Positions 1 to 9,393 of a DNA stretch of 64,000 nt are shown one piece after another (positions within the stretch are counted from its first letter, which is position 1; each line of letters begins with the position of its first letter). A program made the translations under genes and the position numbers. Origin of the DNA: Planctomycetaceae bacterium (GTDB lineage Bacteria; Planctomycetota; Planctomycetia; Planctomycetales; Planctomycetaceae); the NCBI GenBank assembly GCA_019636285.1, contig JAHBXV010000010.1:1-64000 (forward strand). Reading direction: 5' to 3'. The notes beneath the pieces are model-generated. The model did no database searches. It saw only the letters and a list, made by a program, of their open reading frames with translations, and was not told the DNA's origin.

Positions 1-139
1 TCGGGGTGCCTTCAATACTGACAACTCCGGTCACCGGAGCGAGTTTCGGAACGGTTGAACCGCCGCCACAGCCGGCGAGACCAGCTAGAGTTCCTGCCGC
101 CAACAGAGAGAGGGTCAGCGGGTATTTCCACATCAACAT
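1..139 (-). CDS. Small planctomycete lipoprotein, C-terminally truncated by the window edge
   Basis: The minus-strand frame starts at an ATG at 139 (a second in-frame ATG lies at 133) and stays open to the window edge. It reads MLMWKYPLTLSLLAAG, a hydrophobic stretch, then a lipobox LAGC followed by a Gly-rich linker and the start of a beta-rich segment (PVTGVVSIEGTP). This is the usual form of small exported lipoproteins with a carboxypeptidase-regulatory-like fold that sit just after DUF1559 genes in planctomycetes. A GGAG ribosome-binding site lies about 8 bases upstream. A strong terminator separates it from the DUF1559 gene. Its function is unknown and the rest of the gene lies outside the window. 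Confidence 0.75.
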   Translation of the reverse strand, partial: MLMWKYPLTLSLLAAGTLAGLAGCGGGSTVPKLAPVTGVVSIEGTP

Positions 140-152
140 GCGAGCAATCTCC

Positions 153-200
153 GAAAAAAGAAAACCGGGTGTATCCCGCGAGCCGAGGATCCACCCGGTT
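153..200 (-). terminator. Intrinsic terminator or attenuator between the DUF1559 gene and the lipoprotein
   Basis: On the minus strand a 9-bp stem (AACCGGGTG at 163-171 with CACCCGGTT at 192-200) continues after one mismatch for four more pairs and is followed directly by TTTTCTTTTTT. The T-run ends only about 15 bases before the lipoprotein start, so readthrough could set the expression ratio of the two genes. Confidence 0.8.
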
Positions 201-252
201 GTGCTCATGACAACATCGTGAAGAGGTCTATCAGCAATTTGAAGGAAAGCGT

Positions 253-1239
253 TTAGAAATCACCCAGCGGATTGCCATCGGCAGTCATAGCCAATCGCAA
301 TTGAGTGGTTCGATCGAGGTTCTCGCTGAAGAACCGGACGGAACCATCCGCCATCAGGCCATGTGCACCACCAGTGTGAGTGCTGCCCGGAGTTCCCCAG
401 TTGGCAAGCCGACCCGGAATCGAAGTGATAGGCGGCGACCAGGAGCAACACGGCCAGAAATTGATTCCGTTGGCATAACCGAAATCAATGCCGTTGCCGA
501 CCCACTTCGAATAGCCCCACGTATTGGCGATACCATTGCGGATATCCAGCGTGCCTTCCGCAACGGCAACCGCATTGCTGGTTCCGTCGGTAATATCGCG
601 AATGCGCGCCGAGTTATTGACTCCGAACATTCTGCGTGTCAGGCGGTTCTCTGCATCGTAGAAAGCACGGCTACTGGAGTACGCCGTTATATTGAAGTCA
701 TACGATGTTTTGGCCCCGTACAACCCCGCTGCAGACGCTTGTGCAGAAATCTGATAGTGAACCCCCGTGCTGCGATAGAAGGGATCGCCGTTGTCGCTCG
801 GGCAGAGAAATGCGGGGAGCGACCTCGAGAAAACTTGTGCATTGCCGTTGGTGAACGGGTCGCTACTGAAAGTCCAAGGCGCGTTAAAGGCGGCTGCTGG
901 CTCGCTGAAGTTGATCTGATTGTAGAGCGGAGCCTGATCGATGTAGGGGAGCAACAGCGACCAGCCCCGATGATTCAAGCCACGACTTCCGAGAATGGTT
1001 CGTTCCGTCGTCGAGCCGGTCATGGCGCCATCATTCATCGTCGAATACGGGAAGATGTTGTGCGTGTCGTGATAGTTGTGGAGTGCCAACCCGATCTGCT
1101 TGAGATTGTTGCGGCACTGCGTGCGGCGGGCCGCTTCGCGCGCCTGCTGAACGGCCGGAAGCAACAGCGCAATGAGGATAGCGATGATTGCGATCACCAC
1201 CAGTAACTCGATCAGTGTAAAGCCAGAACGACGCCTCAT
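253..1239 (-). CDS. DUF1559 domain-containing pilin-like protein
   Basis: This 328-residue protein starts at the ATG at 1239, just before a class III (type IV pilin-like) leader: [15 protein letters not shown] followed by one hydrophobic helix to about residue 30. The helix runs into the conserved [14 protein letters not shown] region and a Cys-containing DUF1559 body. The C-terminus carries the family H-to-DG motif ([14 protein letters not shown]). A GGGGAG ribosome-binding site precedes this start, so the 27 codons upstream in the same frame are not expected to be translated. DUF1559 proteins are hugely expanded in Planctomycetes; they are presumed to be processed by a prepilin peptidase and displayed at the envelope, but no molecular role is established. 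Confidence 0.93.
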
Positions 1240-1940
1240 GAATGGGCTCCCCAAGAAAGGAATAGGGAAAAGACTCGACCGAACGCGGGATGAACACCCC
1301 ACCGTCCACAATAATCCCAAATCAACGCATCTGCAACCACGGAATTGAAGGACTTGCAGACACTGATTTTAAGCTCAGTATCAGGTTCCGTCTCGCTTTC
1401 GTTTCGACGACGGCGGCTCTTTCAAAATCCCACCTTCAGGTCCGCTTTATCCGCCTTTCGGCATGCTTCGGATTGGCCGGATCTTTCCTCATCGTCTCGG
1501 TTCTCAATTGGATGGAACAACAGAAAGTTGATCGTGGAAGAAGGGATGCAGAGCCGAGCCGCCTTCTCGCCGACCATGCGAGATTTTCAGGCCAATGTTG
1601 GGCAAGTCAAGTAACTCTCTACTCGGCGAACATGTGGGCAGAAAACGTCAGGACCATGATTCGAACATCATCAGGGAAGTGGAATCGGCGCATCGGACGA
1701 GCATCCTGGTGCTAGAAAGTCATGGTAGAGACCGACACGAATTGGACGACGCGCACATTACTCCGTTGAGTTGGCGGGACTCCAGCGCGCGGGAGGCTCT
1801 CGAGATTCCACGCGACTTTTGGGCCGAATTGACCGAGCTAGACGCCCTCAGCCCGTGAGACCCCGGTCTCCGGGTGGAAATCCTCTTGACGAATTTCGCG
1901 GAACGGCGAGACTTGACGTAGTGAGAAATGGGGAGACGGT
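1240..1940. other. Intergenic stretch without a recognisable gene
   Basis: About 700 bases lie between the divergent DUF1559 gene and the Cys-rich exported protein. Several open frames cross it on both strands, but none has a family signature, a signal peptide or a convincing ribosome-binding site, and they overlap one another. It presumably holds the promoters of both flanking genes. I see no clear promoter or RNA gene. Confidence 0.5.
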
Positions 1941-2429
1941 GTGCCTTCGTCTCCGCAACGTCCCGTGATGGTGATATGGTTGATTCGAATGTGGCGCGAC
2001 GTGCTCTCGGTGATGATCGCCGCCTGGATGACAGCCTTTCTGGTTGTCGGCCCGGTTGTCGCGGCATCTCCGTGCCCGTGCTGCGTTTCGGAAAAAGACG
2101 ACCATGCCGGGGCACCGCGTGCCGCGTGCTGCGCCGAGCATGCGGACAAGACCCCGCTTGCGAACTGCAAGCCCGCGTCGGCTTTGAACCTGCCCGAGCA
2201 GAGCCCGAGTTGTCCGCATTGCGAGTTGCAGTCTCATCAGGTCGACGCATCGCGCATTGTTCGCTCGGCGGAGCCGGTTGAATGGGGATTCTTCGCGGCT
2301 TTGATCGCGGAGACGGGCGAAACAATCGTCCCGGTCGTCCCGCGGCTCCCCTCCACGGAACGTCTTAAGCCAATTGACGTTCCCACTCATCAAGAGCGCC
2401 AGGCACAGTTGTGCCGCTGGCTGGCCTGA
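1941..2429 (+). CDS. Exported Cys-rich hypothetical protein next to a metallothionein-like gene
   Basis: This frame encodes about 162 residues. A GTG at 1941 has a good GGGGAG ribosome-binding site 5 bases upstream; in-frame ATGs at 1968 and 1989 are alternatives. The N-terminus has a long hydrophobic segment (VLSVMIAAWMTAFLVVGPVVAA) that looks like a signal peptide or membrane anchor. It is followed by clustered cysteines: CPCC, a CC before AEH, a single Cys, and CPHC followed by a His (SH). These resemble soft-metal or zinc ligands. I do not recognise the family. It lies 143 bases upstream of, and on the same strand as, the metallothionein-like gene, which suggests a shared role in metal handling, but this is inference from position and composition. 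Confidence 0.6.
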   Translation: MPSSPQRPVMVIWLIRMWRDVLSVMIAAWMTAFLVVGPVVAASPCPCCVSEKDDHAGAPRAACCAEHADKTPLANCKPASALNLPEQSPSCPHCELQSHQVDASRIVRSAEPVEWGFFAALIAETGETIVPVVPRLPSTERLKPIDVPTHQERQAQLCRWLA

Positions 2430-2572
2430 TTTCTTCGTAGCGCCGGTTTCCCGTTGTTGAACGGCCAGGAATCGGCGGTTTTCCAGGATGGTTGCCCGGT
2501 GGGCGACTGTCTCTCCACGCGATGGCCAGTCGGTCGTCGCGCACCTGGAATGTCTTACGAAGGAATACGACT

Positions 2573-3091
2573 ATGTTGGCGAAATTGAGTTTGTTTGCCG
2601 GTCTGACGCTGATGTCAGCAGTAGGTATTGTGTTCACGGCCGGAGGAGGCGCCGCGGCGGCGAAGTCGGTGGGTGGATGTTGCAGCGGCAACGCCTGTGG
2701 TTTGTGCGAAACCTGCACGTGCGACTGTGTCGATGGCTGTCGCTGCTGTGAAACGGGTGATTGCCTGTGTGGCGATGCCTGCGAATGTGTCTGCTGCGCG
2801 GCCAAGTCGGCCCAGATCAAGACGGCTTCTGCCAAGGCGGAAACCTGCGAGAAATCGTGCTGTGCCGACAAAGCCTCGGTGACGAAAAAGGCCACGCTGG
2901 GCAATGTCATCGCGGCCGTCGGCGCTTCGGCCGGGGCTTGCTGCGCAAGCAATGCGTGCGGACTTTGCAAAGACTGCACGTGCGATTGCGCGGCGGACTG
3001 CACGTGTTGCGAAACGGGTGACTGCACCTGTGAAGCGTGTGAGTGTGTTTGCTGTGCCGCGGCGGAGTCGTTGCCGTCGTGTGTTGAGTGA
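2573..3091 (+). CDS. Exported metallothionein-like protein with two 16-Cys repeats
   Basis: The 172-residue protein starts at the ATG at 2573, preceded by AAGGA. Residues 1 to about 28 form a signal peptide (LSLFAGLTLMSAVGIVFTAG). The mature part has two near-identical Cys-rich modules, residues 36-75 and 123-161, each with 16 cysteines in the same order (CC, NACGLC, CTCDC, CC, ETGDC, ACECVCC). A Lys/Ala linker with three more cysteines joins them and one Cys lies near the C-terminus, giving 36 Cys in 172 residues. Cys pairs of CxC and CC type suggest multinuclear binding of soft metals such as Cu, Zn or Cd, as in metallothioneins. Known bacterial metallothioneins are usually cytoplasmic and much shorter, so this may be a distinct exported family. 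A strong terminator follows. Confidence 0.85.
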   Translation: MLAKLSLFAGLTLMSAVGIVFTAGGGAAAAKSVGGCCSGNACGLCETCTCDCVDGCRCCETGDCLCGDACECVCCAAKSAQIKTASAKAETCEKSCCADKASVTKKATLGNVIAAVGASAGACCASNACGLCKDCTCDCAADCTCCETGDCTCEACECVCCAAAESLPSCVE

Positions 3092-3102
3092 TGAATGAAG
3101 AG

Positions 3103-3143
3103 CGCCCGGGAGGGAGGGTTCCCTTCCGGGCGTCGTTTTGTTT
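3103..3143 (+). terminator. Intrinsic terminator after the metallothionein-like gene
   Basis: A 12-bp stem with one G-T pair (3103-3114 with 3121-3132) closes a six-base loop and is followed by TCGTTTTGTTT. It begins 12 bases after the stop codon of the metallothionein-like gene and therefore ends its transcript. Confidence 0.85.
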
Positions 3144-3155
3144 GGGGGGGAGGAA

Positions 3156-3194
3156 GACCGCCGCCAGCGGCGGCGGCTTTTCAGGGGGACGTTG
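3156..3194 (+). repeat. 39-bp CCGCCGCC hairpin repeat, copy 1
   Basis: The unit is a GC-only hairpin (CCGCCGC, CA loop, GCGGCGG) followed by CTTTT and the conserved extension CAGGGGGACGTTG. It recurs with one mismatch at 3395-3433 and without the extension at 4191-4218. On the plus strand it has the form of an intrinsic terminator. Confidence 0.75.
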
Positions 3195-3195
3195 C

Positions 3196-3381
3196 TCACG
3201 GCTTCTTCTGGGGTGCCTTCAGTGCTGCGCGCACGGTTTCGGCGAACTTCATGACGGCGATCATGTTGCGCACCCGTTCGTCCGGAGTTCTTCGCAGATT
3301 GGCGGCGATCAGCGAGAGATCGACGTCCTTTTTGTAGAACTCGATGATCGGGTTTGGCCCCAGGTCCAGGTTATCGCGCAT
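3196..3381 (-). CDS. Small hypothetical protein (61 aa)
   Basis: The start is taken at the ATG at 3381 (MRDNLDLGPNPIIEFYKKDVD), preceded by AAAGG. The longer upstream frame only translates the flanking repeat. The protein has the pattern P-IIE-YKKDVD-SLI--NLR-TP-ERV--M, seen in small bacterial proteins that often partner a nucleotidyltransferase or similar short gene; no such partner is evident here. It is charged, probably helical and cytoplasmic. The function is unknown. Both ends abut copies of the CCGCCGCC hairpin repeat, so the gene could have moved as a repeat-bounded cassette, though there is no direct evidence of that. Confidence 0.6.
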   Translation of the reverse strand: MRDNLDLGPNPIIEFYKKDVDLSLIAANLRRTPDERVRNMIAVMKFAETVRAALKAPQKKP

Positions 3382-3394
3382 CGTGATGGCCTTT

Positions 3395-3433
3395 GACCGC
3401 CGCCAGCGGCGGCAGCTTTTCAGGGGGACGTTG
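3395..3433 (+). repeat. 39-bp CCGCCGCC hairpin repeat, copy 2
   Basis: This copy matches copy 1 over 39 bases with one substitution in the hairpin (GGCAGC for GGCGGC). Its CAGGGGGACGTTG end supplies the stop codon and last codons of the minus-strand DUF4058-like gene. Confidence 0.75.
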
Positions 3434-4163
3434 ACTCGACGATTGTTCGCCAAGGTGCCGGGTAGGTTTTCCAGACGCTCTCGTACGTCTCTTCCAACGG
3501 GAGCGGCAGGTAGGCGGTTTCGTCGAGAAACAGGGGCGGTGAGGGAAGACTCTCGCCGACGCGGACCGGTTGCACGTAGGCTGACGTCGTCTTGCCGGCG
3601 CAGTAGGCGGCGGTCAATCGCTCACCGGTTGCGATTCCTTGCGCCGGCTCCCCGGCCAGCGCGTCCCAGAATGCAACGTGCAGCCCTTCCGGAGCGAGGC
3701 GTCCCGGCGGGAAGAGGTCGATCACGACGACGTGTGTTCCCCCTTCGACCAACTCGCATACCTTGTCGACCAGGTCCTGAAGACGACTTCGGCTGGTCTT
3801 GTTGCCGGGGGAGACAATCTCGACGACCGCGACCAGTCGATCGTCCCCCACGCGACGAATCACCAGCCGATCGGCTCGCCGCAGTGCGTGGAGTGTTTCC
3901 GATTCTTCGTGAATCGCGGCCAGCGGCGGATGTTCGGCCACGGCCAGCACGCCTCCGCCTCGGACCGGTTCGAGGTCTTCGGCCGACTCGGTCGCGAATG
4001 CCACAACATCCGGTTCCAGTCGACCGGCGATTTGCTCGCCAGCCGCGAAAAAGCCTGGCGGCAGTAAACCATCGTTCAGGCGGTCGGCCAGCCGATAGAT
4101 CCATGCATTGTGAAAATGATGGAACATGCCGGGCCGAACGCGCGTCCAGTCGTGGAGTGGCAT
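3420..4163 (-). CDS. DUF4058-like protein (PD-(D/E)XK-like fold suspected)
   Basis: This 247-residue protein begins MPLHDWTRV with a His-rich stretch (MFHHFHNAW), typical of a family common in planctomycetes, cyanobacteria and acidobacteria that I place with or near DUF4058. The centre carries LVAVVEIVSPGNK and later HVVVIDLFPPG, which resembles the E-x-K core of PD-(D/E)XK nuclease-like folds found in Uma2 and DUF4058 proteins. No partner gene hints at a role. The last codons (STSP and stop) are formed by the GGGGGAC end of a dispersed repeat, so the original C-terminus may have been replaced. The family call is fairly confident; nuclease activity is only inferred from fold-like motifs. Confidence 0.75.
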   Translation of the reverse strand: MPLHDWTRVRPGMFHHFHNAWIYRLADRLNDGLLPPGFFAAGEQIAGRLEPDVVAFATESAEDLEPVRGGGVLAVAEHPPLAAIHEESETLHALRRADRLVIRRVGDDRLVAVVEIVSPGNKTSRSRLQDLVDKVCELVEGGTHVVVIDLFPPGRLAPEGLHVAFWDALAGEPAQGIATGERLTAAYCAGKTTSAYVQPVRVGESLPSPPLFLDETAYLPLPLEETYESVWKTYPAPWRTIVESTSP

Positions 4164-4190
4164 GTTGGGATTTCCACAATAATGTTGTAA

Positions 4191-4218
4191 GACCGCCGCC
4201 AGCGGCGGCGGCTTTTCA
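4191..4218 (+). repeat. CCGCCGCC hairpin repeat, copy 3 (short form)
   Basis: It has the same GC hairpin followed by CTTTTCA as copies 1 and 2, but lacks the GGGGGACGTTG extension. It lies between the DUF4058-like start and the metH 3' end. Confidence 0.65.
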
Positions 4219-4232
4219 TCTGATTAGAGATT

Positions 4233-4308
4233 CTCACACAACCTCTGTGCAATCCGGTCTTTGCCAGCTGTTCGATAGATCAATGGCAGGCACAACCGGT
4301 TGTGTGAG
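4233..4308. repeat. 76-bp inverted-repeat element, copy 1
   Basis: The element is bounded by a perfect 11-bp inverted repeat, CTCACACAACC and GGTTGTGTGAG. It has a conserved left part (CACAACCTCTGTGCA) and right part (CAGGC-CAACCGGTTGTGT), and the right part contains the self-complementary CACAACCGGTTGTG. A second copy of exactly the same length lies at 27782-27857. This copy sits 7 bases beyond the metH stop codon. Confidence 0.7.
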
Positions 4309-4315
4309 AAGCCGG

Positions 4316-7300
4316 TTAATCATAACCCAGGTTGGGGGCGAGCCAGCGTTCGATTTCGGGGACGGGGACTCCCTTGCGGCGGGCGTAGTCTTCGACCTGG
4401 TCTTTGGTGATCTTGTCGACGGCGAAGTACCGCGCTTCCGGGTGGGCGAAGTAGAGACCGCTCACCGAGGCGGCGGGCCACATGGCGTAGGATTCGGTCA
4501 GCTTGATGCCGGTTCGCGGGGTCGCTTCCAGGAGGTCGAACAGTCGGGGCTTCTCGGTATGGTCCGGGCAGGCGGGGTAGCCGTAGGCCGGGCGGATGCC
4601 GCGATATTTTTCGGCGATCAGATCGTCATTCGAGAGACCTTCGCCGCCGCCAAAGCCCCAGTCTTTTCGGGCCTGTTCGTGGAGTTTCTCGGCGAAGGCT
4701 TCCGCCAGTCGGTCGGCGAGGGCCTTCACCATGATCGACGAGTAATCGTCGTGCTTCTGATGCTCGAAGTCGTCGGCCAGTTCGTCGCAGCCAAAGCCAG
4801 TGGAGACCGCGAACGCGCCGAGGTAGTCTGTGCGGCCGCTGTCTTTGGGGGCGATGTAGTCGGCGAGCGAGCGGAAGTATTTCTGCTCGGGGCGTTCCCA
4901 TTGCTGGCGGAGCATGGGGAAAGAGGTTGAGGGTTGAGGGTTGAGGGTTGAGGGTTCTGAGGAAGAAGGACGCGGGGACTCGGGGAGGGGGAGATTGGGG
5001 GAGAAGATGGGTTGGTCGTTGGTTGTGACGGTCGACAGGAGGCCTGATTCGGCCAGTAAATTGAGGGTGCGGTAAACCGTGGCGCGGGAGTGACGCTTGG
5101 CGCGGGGGACTCGGTTGATTAACTCATCGGGGGTGAAGGCGGAGCGCGAGGTCAGGGCGACTTCCGCGACCGCGCGGCGTTCGACGGAGAAGGCCATCCC
5201 CTTTGTTGCCAAGAACTGCTCGAATTTTTCGATCGCTCGGGCTAAGGGAGTTTTTGACTGATCTGCCGCAGCCGTTGGGTAGACGAGGATGTCGTCGCCA
5301 TTGGAGTTGGCGGGCCAGAAGCCGTAGACGCCGCGGGCGGTCAGCAGTTTTTCGCGGATGATGCGGTCGAGAAGTTTGCGGGCGTCGTCGTAGAGCTTTT
5401 TGGCTTCGGTGCCGACGGTCGCGTCTTCGAAGATGCGCGGATATTTGCCCTTCAGTTCCCACGTCATGAAGAACGGCGACCAGTCGATGTAGGGGATCAG
5501 TTCTTCCAGCGGGTAGTCATCGAGCTGTTTGAGACCGAGGAATGAGGGCGTGGGGATATCGACCGTGGCCCAATCGGTCGGGAACCGGCGTTCGAGAGCC
5601 TCTTGATAAGGAACCAGCTTGCGAGTGGCCTGCATCCCTTCATACGTGCGGCGATCGCGCTCCTGATCCTGACGGACCTTAGCGACATAGTCTGCCTTAC
5701 GATCCGCGTCGATCAGGCTTTCGACGGCAGGGACCGAGAGCGAGGCATCGACAACGTGGATCACCGGTTCCCCGTAGTGGGGGGCGATCTTGACGGCCGT
5801 ATGCCGCGCGCTGGTCGTTGCTCCGCCAATCAACAGAGGGACGACGAACCCCTGCCGCTGCATTTCCTTGGCGACTGTGGCCATTTCTTCCAGCGAGGGT
5901 GTAATCAGGCCGGAGAGGCCGATGATGTCGACACCTTCGGCTTTCGCGGTTTCGAGGATCTTGTCGCAGGGGACCATCACGCCGAGATCGATGACGTCGA
6001 AGTTATTACAGCGCAAGACGACCGCGACAATGTTTTTGCCAATGTCGTGGACGTCCCCCTTCACCGTCGCGATCAGGACTTTGCCGCGGGAGGAAGACGT
6101 GGTCGATGGTTGAGGGTTGATGGTTAATGGTTCGGAAGAAGCGGCGGCTTCTTTTTCGGCTTCCATGAAGGGCTGAAGGTAGGCGACCGCCTTCTTCATG
6201 ACGCGGGCCGATTTGACGACCTGCGGGAGGAACATTTTGCCCTGGCCGAAGAGGTCGCCGACGATGCTCATGCCGTCCATGAGCGGGCCCTGAATGACGT
6301 TCAGGGGACGGCCATATTTCTGGCGGGCTTCTTCGGTATCGACTTCGATGTAATCGCTGACGCCTTTGAGCAGCGCGTGTTTGAGGCGTTCTTCGACGGG
6401 GCCGTTGCGCCATTCCTCGACGACGGCTTCGGTTTCCGACTTCGTGGCCTTCATTTGCGAGGAATAGTCGATCAGCCGTTCGGTCGCGTCGGGCCGACGG
6501 TTGAGGAGGACGTCCTCGACGTATTCGAGCAGTTCCTTGTCGATTTCCTCATAGACGGCGAGTTGACCGGCGTTGACGATGCCCATATCGAGCCCGGCGC
6601 GGATGGCGTGATACAGGAAGGCCGCGTTCATCGCTTCGCGAACGAGTTCGTTGCCGCGGAACGAGAACGAGACGTTGCTGACGCCGCCGGACGTCTTCGC
6701 ATGCGGGCAGGTCGCCTTGATTTCGCGGACGGCGTCGATGAATTCGACGGCGTAGTTGGCGTGCTCTTCCATCCCCGTGCCGACTGTGAGGATGTTCGAG
6801 TCGAAGATGATGTCTTCCGGGGGGAACCCGGCCTTTTCGGTCAACAGTTTGTAGGCCCGCTGGCAGATCGCGACCTTGCGGTCTTTGAGGTCGGCCTGTC
6901 CCTGCTCATCGAAGGCCATCACGACGACGGCGGCCCCGTAACGGCGAATGGTGCGGGCCTGTTCGAGGAACTTGTCTTCGCCTTCCTTCATGGAGATCGA
7001 ATTGACGACCCCCTTGCCGGAGAGGCATTTGAGCCCGGCTTCGATGACTTCAAATTTCGAGCTGTCGACCATCACCGGCACCTTGGCGATGTCGGGGTCG
7101 TCGGCGATCAGGTTGAGGAAGTGGGTCATTTCGGCGGCGGAGTCGAGCAGACCTTCGTCCATGTTGACGTCGATCATGTTCGCGCCGTTCTCGACCTGCT
7201 CGCGGGCGATCGAGAGAGCTTCTTCGTACTTCTTCTCGCGGATCAGCCGCGCGAATTTCTTCGAGCCGGTCACGTTGGTGCGTTCGCCGATCATTAAGAA

Positions 7301-8410
7301 GGGCGAGGAGCCTTGAGCGGAAGGCTGAGAGCCAGAGGAAGCGTCGGACGGGGTGGTGTCTTTCAGCGCGAGGAGTTCGGAGCCGCTGTAAAGCGAGTCG
7401 TGGGCGCCTTCGGGGATGCGGCGCGGGCGCTGGTCGGCGACGGCTTCGGCAATTTCCTTGATGTAGGCGGGCGTGGTGCCGCAACAGCCGCCGACGATGT
7501 TGACCCAGCCGTTCTTCGCGAACTCGCGGATGTTCTTCGCGACGTCGGACGGCGAGGCATCGAAGCCCCCCATGCCGTCGGGCATGCCGGCGTTGGGATA
7601 ACAACTGATGTACTTCGGCGCGATATGGGCCAGCGATTCGAGGTAGGTTCTCATCTGCGCGGGACCGAGCGCGCAGTTGAGGCCGACGGACGTCATCGGA
7701 AAATGCGAGACGGCTGCCCAGAAGGCTTCGAGCGTCTGCCCAGTGAGCGTACGTCCGCCGGTGAAGATCGTCCCGGAGACCATGACGGGAATCCGCCGTC
7801 CGGTTTCCGCGAAGACCTGCTCGATCGCTTTGAGACACGACTTCATGTTGAGCGTGTCGAACGATGTCTCCGGCAGCAGAACGTCGACGCCCCCTTCGAG
7901 GAGGCCGCGGACCTGCTCGGCATACGAGGCGACCATGTCGTCGAATGAGACCGGGCGATAGCCGGGACGGTCGGCGTTGAAGGAGAGCTGGACTTTCGTC
8001 GGTCCGATGCTTCCCGCGACGAAGCGCGGCTTCGACGGATTGCGAGCCGTGAATTCGTCGGCGACCGACCGGGCCAGCTCGGCCGCCTTGAGGTTGATCT
8101 CTCGCGTCAGGTCGGCGAGGCCGAATTCTTCCATCGAGACGATATTCGCGTTGAACGAATCGGTCTCGATGATGTCGGCCCCGGCCTCCAGGTACTGCCG
8201 GTGGATCGATGCGATCATCCGGGGCTGCGTGAGGACCAGCACGTCGCTGGCGTTCTTCAGGTCGATCGCATGATCCTTGAACCGCTCGCCCCGATAGTCG
8301 GCCTCGGTCGGATTGAACTGGTGAATCATCGACCCCATCGCCCCGTCAATGACGAGAATCCGCTGGGTGAGAAGCTCTTCAAACAAACCGAAAGGTTGGG
8401 GACCGGACAT
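4316..8410 (-). CDS. metH: Cobalamin-dependent methionine synthase with an inserted Fur-like winged helix
   Basis: MetH transfers a methyl group from methyl-tetrahydrofolate through B12 to homocysteine. The start is the ATG at 8410 ([14 protein letters not shown]), giving 1364 residues against about 1227 in E. coli. The domain order is: homocysteine-binding barrel with zinc ligands Cys246, Cys309 and Cys310 (GGCCGTTP); pterin-binding barrel ([11 protein letters not shown]); B12 domain with the DVHDIG motif and axial His788; and the AdoMet activation domain, ending [11 protein letters not shown]. Residues 1045-1165 have no counterpart in normal MetH. They contain a Fur-type winged helix (about 1058-1128, ATVYRTLN then ESGLL) and a Pro/Ser linker encoded by TTGAGGG heptads. 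A second heptad-encoded linker precedes the B12 domain. The reading frame is intact and catalytic residues are kept. I see no cobalamin riboswitch upstream. Confidence 0.97.
4928..4957. repeat. TTGAGGG heptanucleotide tandem repeat inside metH
   Basis: Four consecutive TTGAGGG units plus TT lie within the metH reading frame and encode the linker STLNPQPST between the Fur-like insertion and the rest of the activation domain. Degenerate forms occur at about 6106-6134 in the same gene and at 14014-14038 between genes. Confidence 0.85.
6106..6134. repeat. Degenerate TTGAGGG/TTGATGG heptad repeat inside metH
   Basis: Variants of the same heptad (GGTTGAGGGTTGATGGTTAA) encode the linker LTINPQPST just upstream of the B12-binding domain. 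Confidence 0.75.
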
Positions 8411-8516
8411 GGCGACGGGCAATCTGGCGAGGAAAACGGGCGGTAACTGGTCTGTACAGGTTGGGACTCTCGGCAAAGTATAACGGAATGGGCTTCACTG
8501 CCGTAGTCGGAAGAGG

Positions 8517-8602
8517 AGTCGAGGGTCGAGAGTCCAGAGTCGAGAAATGCTGGAGAATTCTGACGTTTTGGGCTCTCGACTCTCGACACTAGACTCTCGA
8601 CA
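8517..8602. repeat. Imperfect inverted repeat of CTCGA-rich units upstream of metH
   Basis: The left arm at 8517-8544 (repeats of GTCGAGAGTC type) is matched by an inverted right arm at 8572-8602 (CTCTCGACTCTCGACACTAG and onward), separated by about 27 bases. It lies between the divergent metH and HAD hydrolase genes. It looks like an expanded short-repeat palindrome, not a defined operator. Confidence 0.6.
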
Positions 8603-8661
8603 CCACCGGACGCAATTGAGTTCGCCGATGCCATGGATTTGACAAGACCGCAGGTTTACCA

Positions 8662-9393
8662 ATGCCAGAGTGGGTCTTTTTTGATGTTGGGAATGTGCTG
8701 TACAATGACGACCGGCAGTCGGCTCGGAGTTATGCCCATTTTCATCGGGTCTTTCAGTCGTACGAGCCGGGGTTGACGTTCGCCGATCTGATGCGGGAGC
8801 GGGAGTTGGAGGCTCGGCAGGCGCCGGGGTGGGTGCTGCGGCGCATCTCGCAGCGGCGGCTTCCGGCGGACCGGTTCGCGGCGGAGCTCACGGCATTGCG
8901 AGCGCTGCTGGAGTCACAATTCGATGAGCATCACCAGATCAACCCCGGCGCGGCCGAAGTGCTGGCGGAACTGGCGAAGAGCTATCGGCTCGGCATCCTG
9001 GCCAATCAGCCAGCCGAGTGCCGGGCGAGTCTGGCGCGGCGGAATCTGCTTGCCTACTTTCAGGTGGTCGCCATCAGCGAGGAACTCGACCTCCACAAAC
9101 CCGATCCGGAAATCTTCCGGTGGGCTCTGGAGCAAGCCGGCTGCGATCCGGCCCAGGCGGTGATGGTGGGGGACCGCCAGGACAACGACATCGCCCCGGC
9201 GAAGGCGTTAGGCTTTAAGACGGTGCAGGTTGTCTGGCGGGAGAAGTGCTGGCCGGGCGAGACCGACGACGATTTGCTGTTCCTTGACTCCTGCCGCCGC
9301 GTGCCGGTGTTCTCGCAGCAGTTTCCGGGCGGGGAGCCGGATGCGGTGATTGGGGAGTTGGGTGAGTTGCCGGGGGTGTTGGGGGGGATGTGA
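8662..9393 (+). CDS. HAD-superfamily hydrolase
   Basis: This 243-residue protein has the HAD motifs in order. Motif I is FFDVGNVLY near the N-terminus, with the nucleophile Asp followed two residues later by Gly in place of the second Asp, as in many haloacid dehalogenase-type members. Motif II is ILANQP, the Lys motif is HKPDPEIF, and motif III is MVGDRQDNDIAPAKALG. A helical cap region lies between motifs I and II. The missing second Asp suggests a dehalogenase-like or otherwise altered activity instead of a typical phosphatase, but the substrate is unknown. The gene diverges from metH across a palindromic spacer. The start ATG is preceded by a weak AGG site. Confidence 0.88.
   Translation: MPEWVFFDVGNVLYNDDRQSARSYAHFHRVFQSYEPGLTFADLMRERELEARQAPGWVLRRISQRRLPADRFAAELTALRALLESQFDEHHQINPGAAEVLAELAKSYRLGILANQPAECRASLARRNLLAYFQVVAISEELDLHKPDPEIFRWALEQAGCDPAQAVMVGDRQDNDIAPAKALGFKTVQVVWREKCWPGETDDDLLFLDSCRRVPVFSQQFPGGEPDAVIGELGELPGVLGGM

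Follow-up and report, generated by a model that had tools for sequence, protein, structure and literature searches.

Introduction

Metallothioneins of bacteria are generally regarded as cytoplasmic proteins, and for thiol stores outside the cytoplasm Csp1 is the main known example. The described bacterial metallothioneins are small, Cys-dense proteins with CxC and CxxC motifs, and Csp1 is a Tat-exported four-helix bundle that acts as a Cys-rich Cu(I) store (PMC7558416). Leader proteins that sense copper during their own synthesis form a second group of related systems. In CutF-CutO, an exported nascent protein binds copper, pauses via its C-terminus and opens the stem in which the downstream Shine-Dalgarno sequence is hidden, and those CutF-like proteins that have Cys motifs are mostly found ahead of copper genes, CusCBA included (PMC9973294); a few homologues in Planctomycetes were noted by Roy et al. 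The DUF2946 upstream ORF CruR of Bordetella pertussis is also a copper-sensing leader located upstream of metal genes (PMC9426467); it possesses CxxC and a RAPP motif, operates through Rho-dependent termination without needing a Sec signal, and copper shuts off the genes downstream of it (PMC9973294). The literature that was searched contained no paper on exported metallothioneins of planctomycetes. Here we describe a locus of a Planctomycetaceae bacterium (GCA_019636285.1, hereafter G000), within a stretch of 64,000 nucleotides (contig JAHBXV010000010.1, positions 1 to 64,000 of the forward strand; hereafter the window), in which a gene for a metallothionein-like protein directly follows a gene for a small Cys-rich leader.

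A metallothionein-like protein with two Cys modules

Translation of the ORF at positions 2573-3091 (+) yields an exported-looking protein of 172 aa with 36 Cys residues, in agreement with the count given in a first-pass annotation of this DNA. Residues 1-30 (2573-2662, +) make up a signal-peptide-like segment with Lys4, a hydrophobic core and AxA at 29/30, in line with the signal peptide named in the same annotation. The remainder consists of Cys module 1 (residues 35-77; 2675-2803, +), a linker with the motif CxxxCC (Cys 92, 96 and 97; 2804-2935, +), Cys module 2 (residues 122-163; 2936-3061, +) and a lone C-terminal Cys170 outside the modules and linker. Both modules contain 16 Cys, as had been claimed, and all 16 coincide between them, compared with 6.1 on average and at most 11 in 20,000 shuffles. 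To call the modules near-identical is a slight overstatement, since they share 73.8% identity at the protein and 67.5% at the DNA level. The CC, CxC and CxxC spacing that had been pointed out is represented by 7, 12 and 5 instances, respectively, and F, W, Y and H are entirely missing past residue 35. With its small size, dense Cys in CxC, CC and CxxC motifs and lack of aromatic residues after residue 35, the protein has the sequence features by which a metallothionein is recognized.

The reading frame is real, as shown by a comparison with the relative in genome G089: the differences at the three codon positions amount to 54/55/104, and the changes in 13 Cys codons are all synonymous. The ORF is preceded by the Shine-Dalgarno sequence GAAGGA at 2559-2564, and directly 3' of it a strong intrinsic-terminator-like hairpin (3102-3133, +), with a 14-bp stem followed by CGTTTTGTTT, closes the two-gene unit. 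Next to the cassette, the REP-like palindromic repeat GACCGCCGCCAGCGGCGGCGGCTTTTCA occurs in three copies (3156-3194, 3395-3433 and 4191-4229).

Neither Pfam nor NCBIfam gave any match to the window protein at E values up to 10, a PDB sequence search returned none, and no metallothionein match was obtained when the nine relatives described below were compared with Pfam at E up to 1. AlphaFold predicted no fold for the metallothionein-like protein (pLDDT 36) or for the leader; a missing fold is expected of an apo-metallothionein and proves nothing.

Relatives and distribution

Sequence and profile searches detected the gene in only three of the 170 family genomes (G000, from which the window comes, G089 and G115), and whole-protein and first-profile searches at the level of family, order, class and phylum recovered only three genomes. 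A DNA pattern fixing nothing but the Cys spacing (C.C...C.CC....C.C), run over 397 genomes of the class, added six genomes (G181, G211, G226, G173, G196 and G336), for which this pattern was the sole criterion and the leader gene played no part; most of its other matches were TGC/TGT repeats. The proteins encoded at the six added loci are 60-117 aa long, contain 13-26 Cys and have a hydrophobic N-terminus in every case. In total, and counted as lower bounds, at least nine genomes of the class, from six genera and including G000, carry the gene, with 13-36 Cys per protein. Among the 110 sampled genomes of a second family, f5, the genus g62 alone was positive, with the gene present in all four of its species, and the distribution is patchy. 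A plasmid search revealed no relative and contig scans of genomes no confirmed relative; pattern matches in viral contigs were repeats or chance frames.

Across ten module sequences, taken from eight genomes, ten Cys columns show no variation. The proteins of G115 and G181 contain one Cys array, that of G115 ending in the same CxxxCC as the window's linker, and a near-repeat of the core is present only in G000 and G089. In the g62 protein at L180:5755-6105 (+), and in those of the three other g62 species, the core module is preceded by a second, regularly spaced array, CECVNCACPDCDG..CSC..CxCEKCGC, whose spacing is unlike that of the duplicated core of the window.

The first-pass proposal of an exported, duplicated, metallothionein-like protein is partly supported and remains the best reading of the sequence, given the CC/CxC arrays, the lack of aromatic residues, a core module kept in nine genomes and a signal-like segment in every relative. 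Duplication, however, does not define the family, whose members may have one module, or one module and a different Cys array. The underlying observation is confirmed, but the feature that matters most lies outside 2573-3091: the first-pass annotation missed both the partner gene and an RNA structure predicted in the junction that separates it from the metallothionein-like gene.

The leader gene and its neighbors

The partner gene (1968-2429, +) encodes an exported-looking Cys/His protein of 153 aa with 9 Cys and a CxCC motif after the signal. In 9 of the 9 genomes with the metallothionein-like gene (six genera), such a leader gene lies directly upstream on the same strand, and its end is separated from the metallothionein-like gene by 64-143 nt. 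By inspection, all leaders possess a hydrophobic N-terminus and CxC/CC motifs. Similarity between the leaders of G000 and G089 is clear (E 4e-10) and weaker elsewhere; for G115, G181 and G336, kinship to the window's leader is mainly architectural, consisting in the signal-like segment, the CxC/CC motifs and the end. Every leader terminates in C-x-[W/L]-x-x-stop, with Cys always fifth from the end: C-R-W-L-A in the window (2412-2429 with the stop codon, +) and, elsewhere among the nine genomes, C-R-W-Q-K, C-V-W-L-K, C-R-W-L-N or C-R-W-R-N, C-C-L-L-N, and C-V-W-L-D. Length and middle part are poorly conserved, and the last five residues stand at a fixed distance from the stop codon. Pfam and NCBIfam scans of the nine leaders gave no DUF2946 match, and inspection revealed no Pro-Pro or RAPP-type motif within 15 residues of the C-terminus.

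A family leader profile, built from the three genomes of the window's family, matched within that family only these same three genomes, a result that is partly circular for this reason; other matches were marginal. Leader-profile searching also located leaders without a metallothionein in two further genomes. The first, in G838 (L194:6541-6981, +; ending C-I-W-R-K), sits inside a CusCBA-type operon, in the order outer-membrane efflux gene (OEP), leader, CusB-like gene (HlyD_D23 and heavy-metal-binding domain), ACR_tran pump; a long gap (about 270-365 nt) follows this leader gene. The second, in G434, ends C-R-W-T-I and is followed by a gene for an exported-looking 147-aa protein (L197:7180-7620, -) with two Cys-rich CPV...CCxxC repeats and weak YHS and TRASH matches, below the Pfam cut-offs. 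Overall, the gene after the leader is metallothionein-like in nine of 11 cases, CusCBA-type in one and YHS/TRASH-like in one, so that it is, or plausibly is, a metal-handling gene in 11 of 11. That the partner gene adjoins an efflux operon of CusCBA type in one other genome and a gene for a YHS/TRASH-like protein in another supports a metal role for the window protein.

Those other flanking genes that were examined differ from lineage to lineage and bear no relation to one another (MetH/DUF1559; DUF486; 3-keto-disaccharide hydrolase and transglutaminase-like; PTS genes; FHIPEP and LTXXQ), and none of them is a metal gene. In the window, the pair has no known copper regulator or transporter beside it. 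The leader gene of G089 (L003:478-891, +) directly follows the DUF486 (DMT_6) membrane protein gene, with which it may be co-transcribed. The MetH ORF of the window (4316-8476, -; 1386 aa) shows a FUR-like winged-helix match (PF01475, E 3.8e-6, residues 1092-1154), which precedes the main activation-domain match (two stretches) and lies beside low-complexity 'STLNPQPST' linkers, a similar linker being present earlier in the protein.

Predicted RNA structure between the two genes

Folding of the region from the last 30 nt of the leader to 30 nt into the second gene predicted an outer stem of 12 bp, whose 5' arm (2429-2440, +) starts at the last base of the leader stop codon and whose 3' arm (2555-2566, +) covers the Shine-Dalgarno sequence of the metallothionein-like gene. 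In the predicted folds this Shine-Dalgarno sequence is mostly paired; because a paired Shine-Dalgarno is also common in shuffles, the test was aimed specifically at pairing with the leader stop region, using 300 shuffles per junction in which the Shine-Dalgarno and downstream sequence were kept fixed. The predicted pairing probability was 1.00 in G000 (0/300 shuffles as high), 0.79 in G115 (1/300), and 0.97, 0.96, 0.97 and 0.98 in the g62 genomes G211, G226, G173 and G196 (2/300, 5/300, 3/300 and 0/300, respectively). The stem was weak or absent in G089, G181 and G336, for which 33/300, 44/300 and 200/300 shuffles were as good. Pairing with the stop region is thus significant in three of the six pair-bearing lineages (G000, G115 and genus g62). 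Among natural control junctions, of which only nine could be built, one scored as high. The 5' arm in g62 falls within the final codons of the leader, and one pair is changed on both sides, from U-A to G-C, with one more double-change cell at a second pair; these four close species afford little power for covariation. A stem hiding the Shine-Dalgarno sequence was not evident in G434, the intergenic regions of three genomes, when aligned, had no clear sequence motif in common, and no Rfam match was obtained in window positions 1-9000. In summary, the predicted Shine-Dalgarno-hiding structure is good in three of the lineages but not established as a trait of the family.

Proposed working of the cassette and alternative readings

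From the observed ORFs and their pairing, the constant C-terminal motif, the metal-related neighbors of the leader and the predicted stem, we infer a cassette of two genes that serves to handle metal outside the cytoplasm. The second gene would encode a Sec-exported metallothionein-like buffer, whose CC/CxC arrays would hold several soft metal ions as metal-thiolate clusters, and the first gene a small exported Cys-rich leader. During translation and export of the leader, metal would bind its exposed Cys motifs, and the metal-bound leader would alter ribosome movement or pausing at the C-x-W-x-x C-terminus and stop codon. A ribosome held at this point could keep open the stem that otherwise hides the Shine-Dalgarno sequence of the second gene, so that the direction of regulation would be positive, with the metallothionein translated when metal outside the membrane rises. 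We consider such control of an exported buffer by a nascent, exported, Cys-based metal sensor, working in a CutF-CutO-like manner, somewhat more probable than all other explanations together. The metal sensed, and most likely also bound by the buffer, would probably be Cu(I)/Ag(I); copper is favored over zinc on account of the Cus-type neighbor in one genome and the all-Cys ligands, the window metallothionein having no His.

The same gene pair could also be read as two working partners: the leader, exported as a chaperone or carrier of metal, would load the metallothionein or dock it, and the two genes would be joined by simple translational coupling. Such a partnership would account for an exported-looking, Cys/His-rich leader in every genome and for its co-occurrence with the metallothionein-like gene in nine of nine, and coupling of a simple stoichiometric kind is likewise produced by stem-loops that lie between coupled genes. 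It fits less well with a leader whose length and middle drift while its last five residues remain fixed relative to the stop codon, as in leader peptides, and whose neighbors are interchangeable (metallothionein, CusBA, YHS-like protein); we therefore regard it as a serious but rather unlikely explanation.

A structural or surface role in the envelope, with the Cys residues joined in disulfides, appears quite improbable. Cys-rich YTV-domain wall proteins are known in planctomycetes (PMC8567305), and an exported protein meets oxidizing surroundings; nevertheless, the patchy distribution (3/170 genomes of the family, one genus in 110 genomes of another) is unlike that of a wall component, and the small size, the dense CxC and CC spacing and the link of the leader to metal efflux also speak against it. 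VKOR, taken alone as a sign of an oxidizing envelope, was uninformative, being absent in G000 and four others and present in G211.

A thiol or redox buffer, or a sink for electrophiles or oxidants, rather than a protein mainly for metals, would accord with the observation that metallothioneins can also act in oxidative stress; Pseudomonas aeruginosa PmtA has been reported at the cell surface, with a link to oxidative stress (PMC11237414). However, the fixed Cys spacing over ten modules and the metal-related neighbors of the leader point to metals, and this function as the main one is very improbable. Finally, a spurious ORF or low-complexity artefact, suggested by a long overlapping antisense ORF (2365-3027), is refuted by the third-position excess and synonymous Cys codon changes relative to G089, and with relatives in nine genomes, a Shine-Dalgarno sequence and a terminator against it as well, its probability is practically nil.

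Returning to the sensor-controlled exported buffer, an exported metallothionein raises the question of how dozens of thiols stay reduced and metal-loaded outside the membrane. As to how production of such a protein could be adjusted to extracellular metal, the leader gene suggests an answer that is open to experiment. Confirmation would widen nascent-chain metal sensing to a family of proteins whose C-terminal motif is different, and to a phylum in which little is known about copper handling. Tentatively, and with doubt slightly prevailing, the cassette may represent a new family of exported bacterial metallothioneins in Planctomycetes, run by a new class of nascent-chain metal sensors that end in C-x-W-x-x, have no DUF2946 match and are placed by related bacteria also beside a Cus-type efflux pump.

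Comparison with known systems

The window protein resembles SmtA, MymT and PmtA in being small and Cys-dense with CxC/CxxC motifs, and differs from them in its two modules, its signal-like N-terminus and its lack of a match to any Pfam or NCBIfam model. With Csp1 it shares the character of an exported-looking, Cys-rich candidate metal store; unlike Csp1, a preformed four-helix bundle, it has no AlphaFold fold, its CC/CxC spacing is ill-suited to a bundle, and no match to the Csp family was found in Pfam, NCBIfam or PDB sequence searches. The window protein, being exported-looking, Cys-rich and planctomycete, resembles the YTV-domain wall proteins in these respects; it differs in its compact CC/CxC arrays, its patchy distribution and its lack of a domain match in Pfam or NCBIfam.

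As to the leader, CruR is related, with a sign of regulation opposite to that proposed here. Compared with CutF, the leader has no DUF2946 match, ends in C-x-W-x-x instead of a Pro-rich motif and contains many more Cys, and its target is metallothionein-like, whereas CutO is a multicopper oxidase. Since neither DUF2946 nor a Pro-Pro motif was found, we call the leader CutF-like in its working and not a CutF. The closest parallel is with CutF-CutO of Rhodobacter capsulatus (cutFOG; DUF2946). There, a small Sec-exported leader with a Cys motif and a conserved C-terminus is encoded in the same orientation just ahead of its target, whose Shine-Dalgarno sequence is covered by a stem-loop, and homologues precede CusCBA-type genes (PMC9973294). 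The leader described here is likewise small and exported-looking, with Cys motifs and a constant end, and occupies the corresponding place; a comparable stem-loop is predicted in three lineages, and one genome has the leader ahead of CusCBA-type genes.
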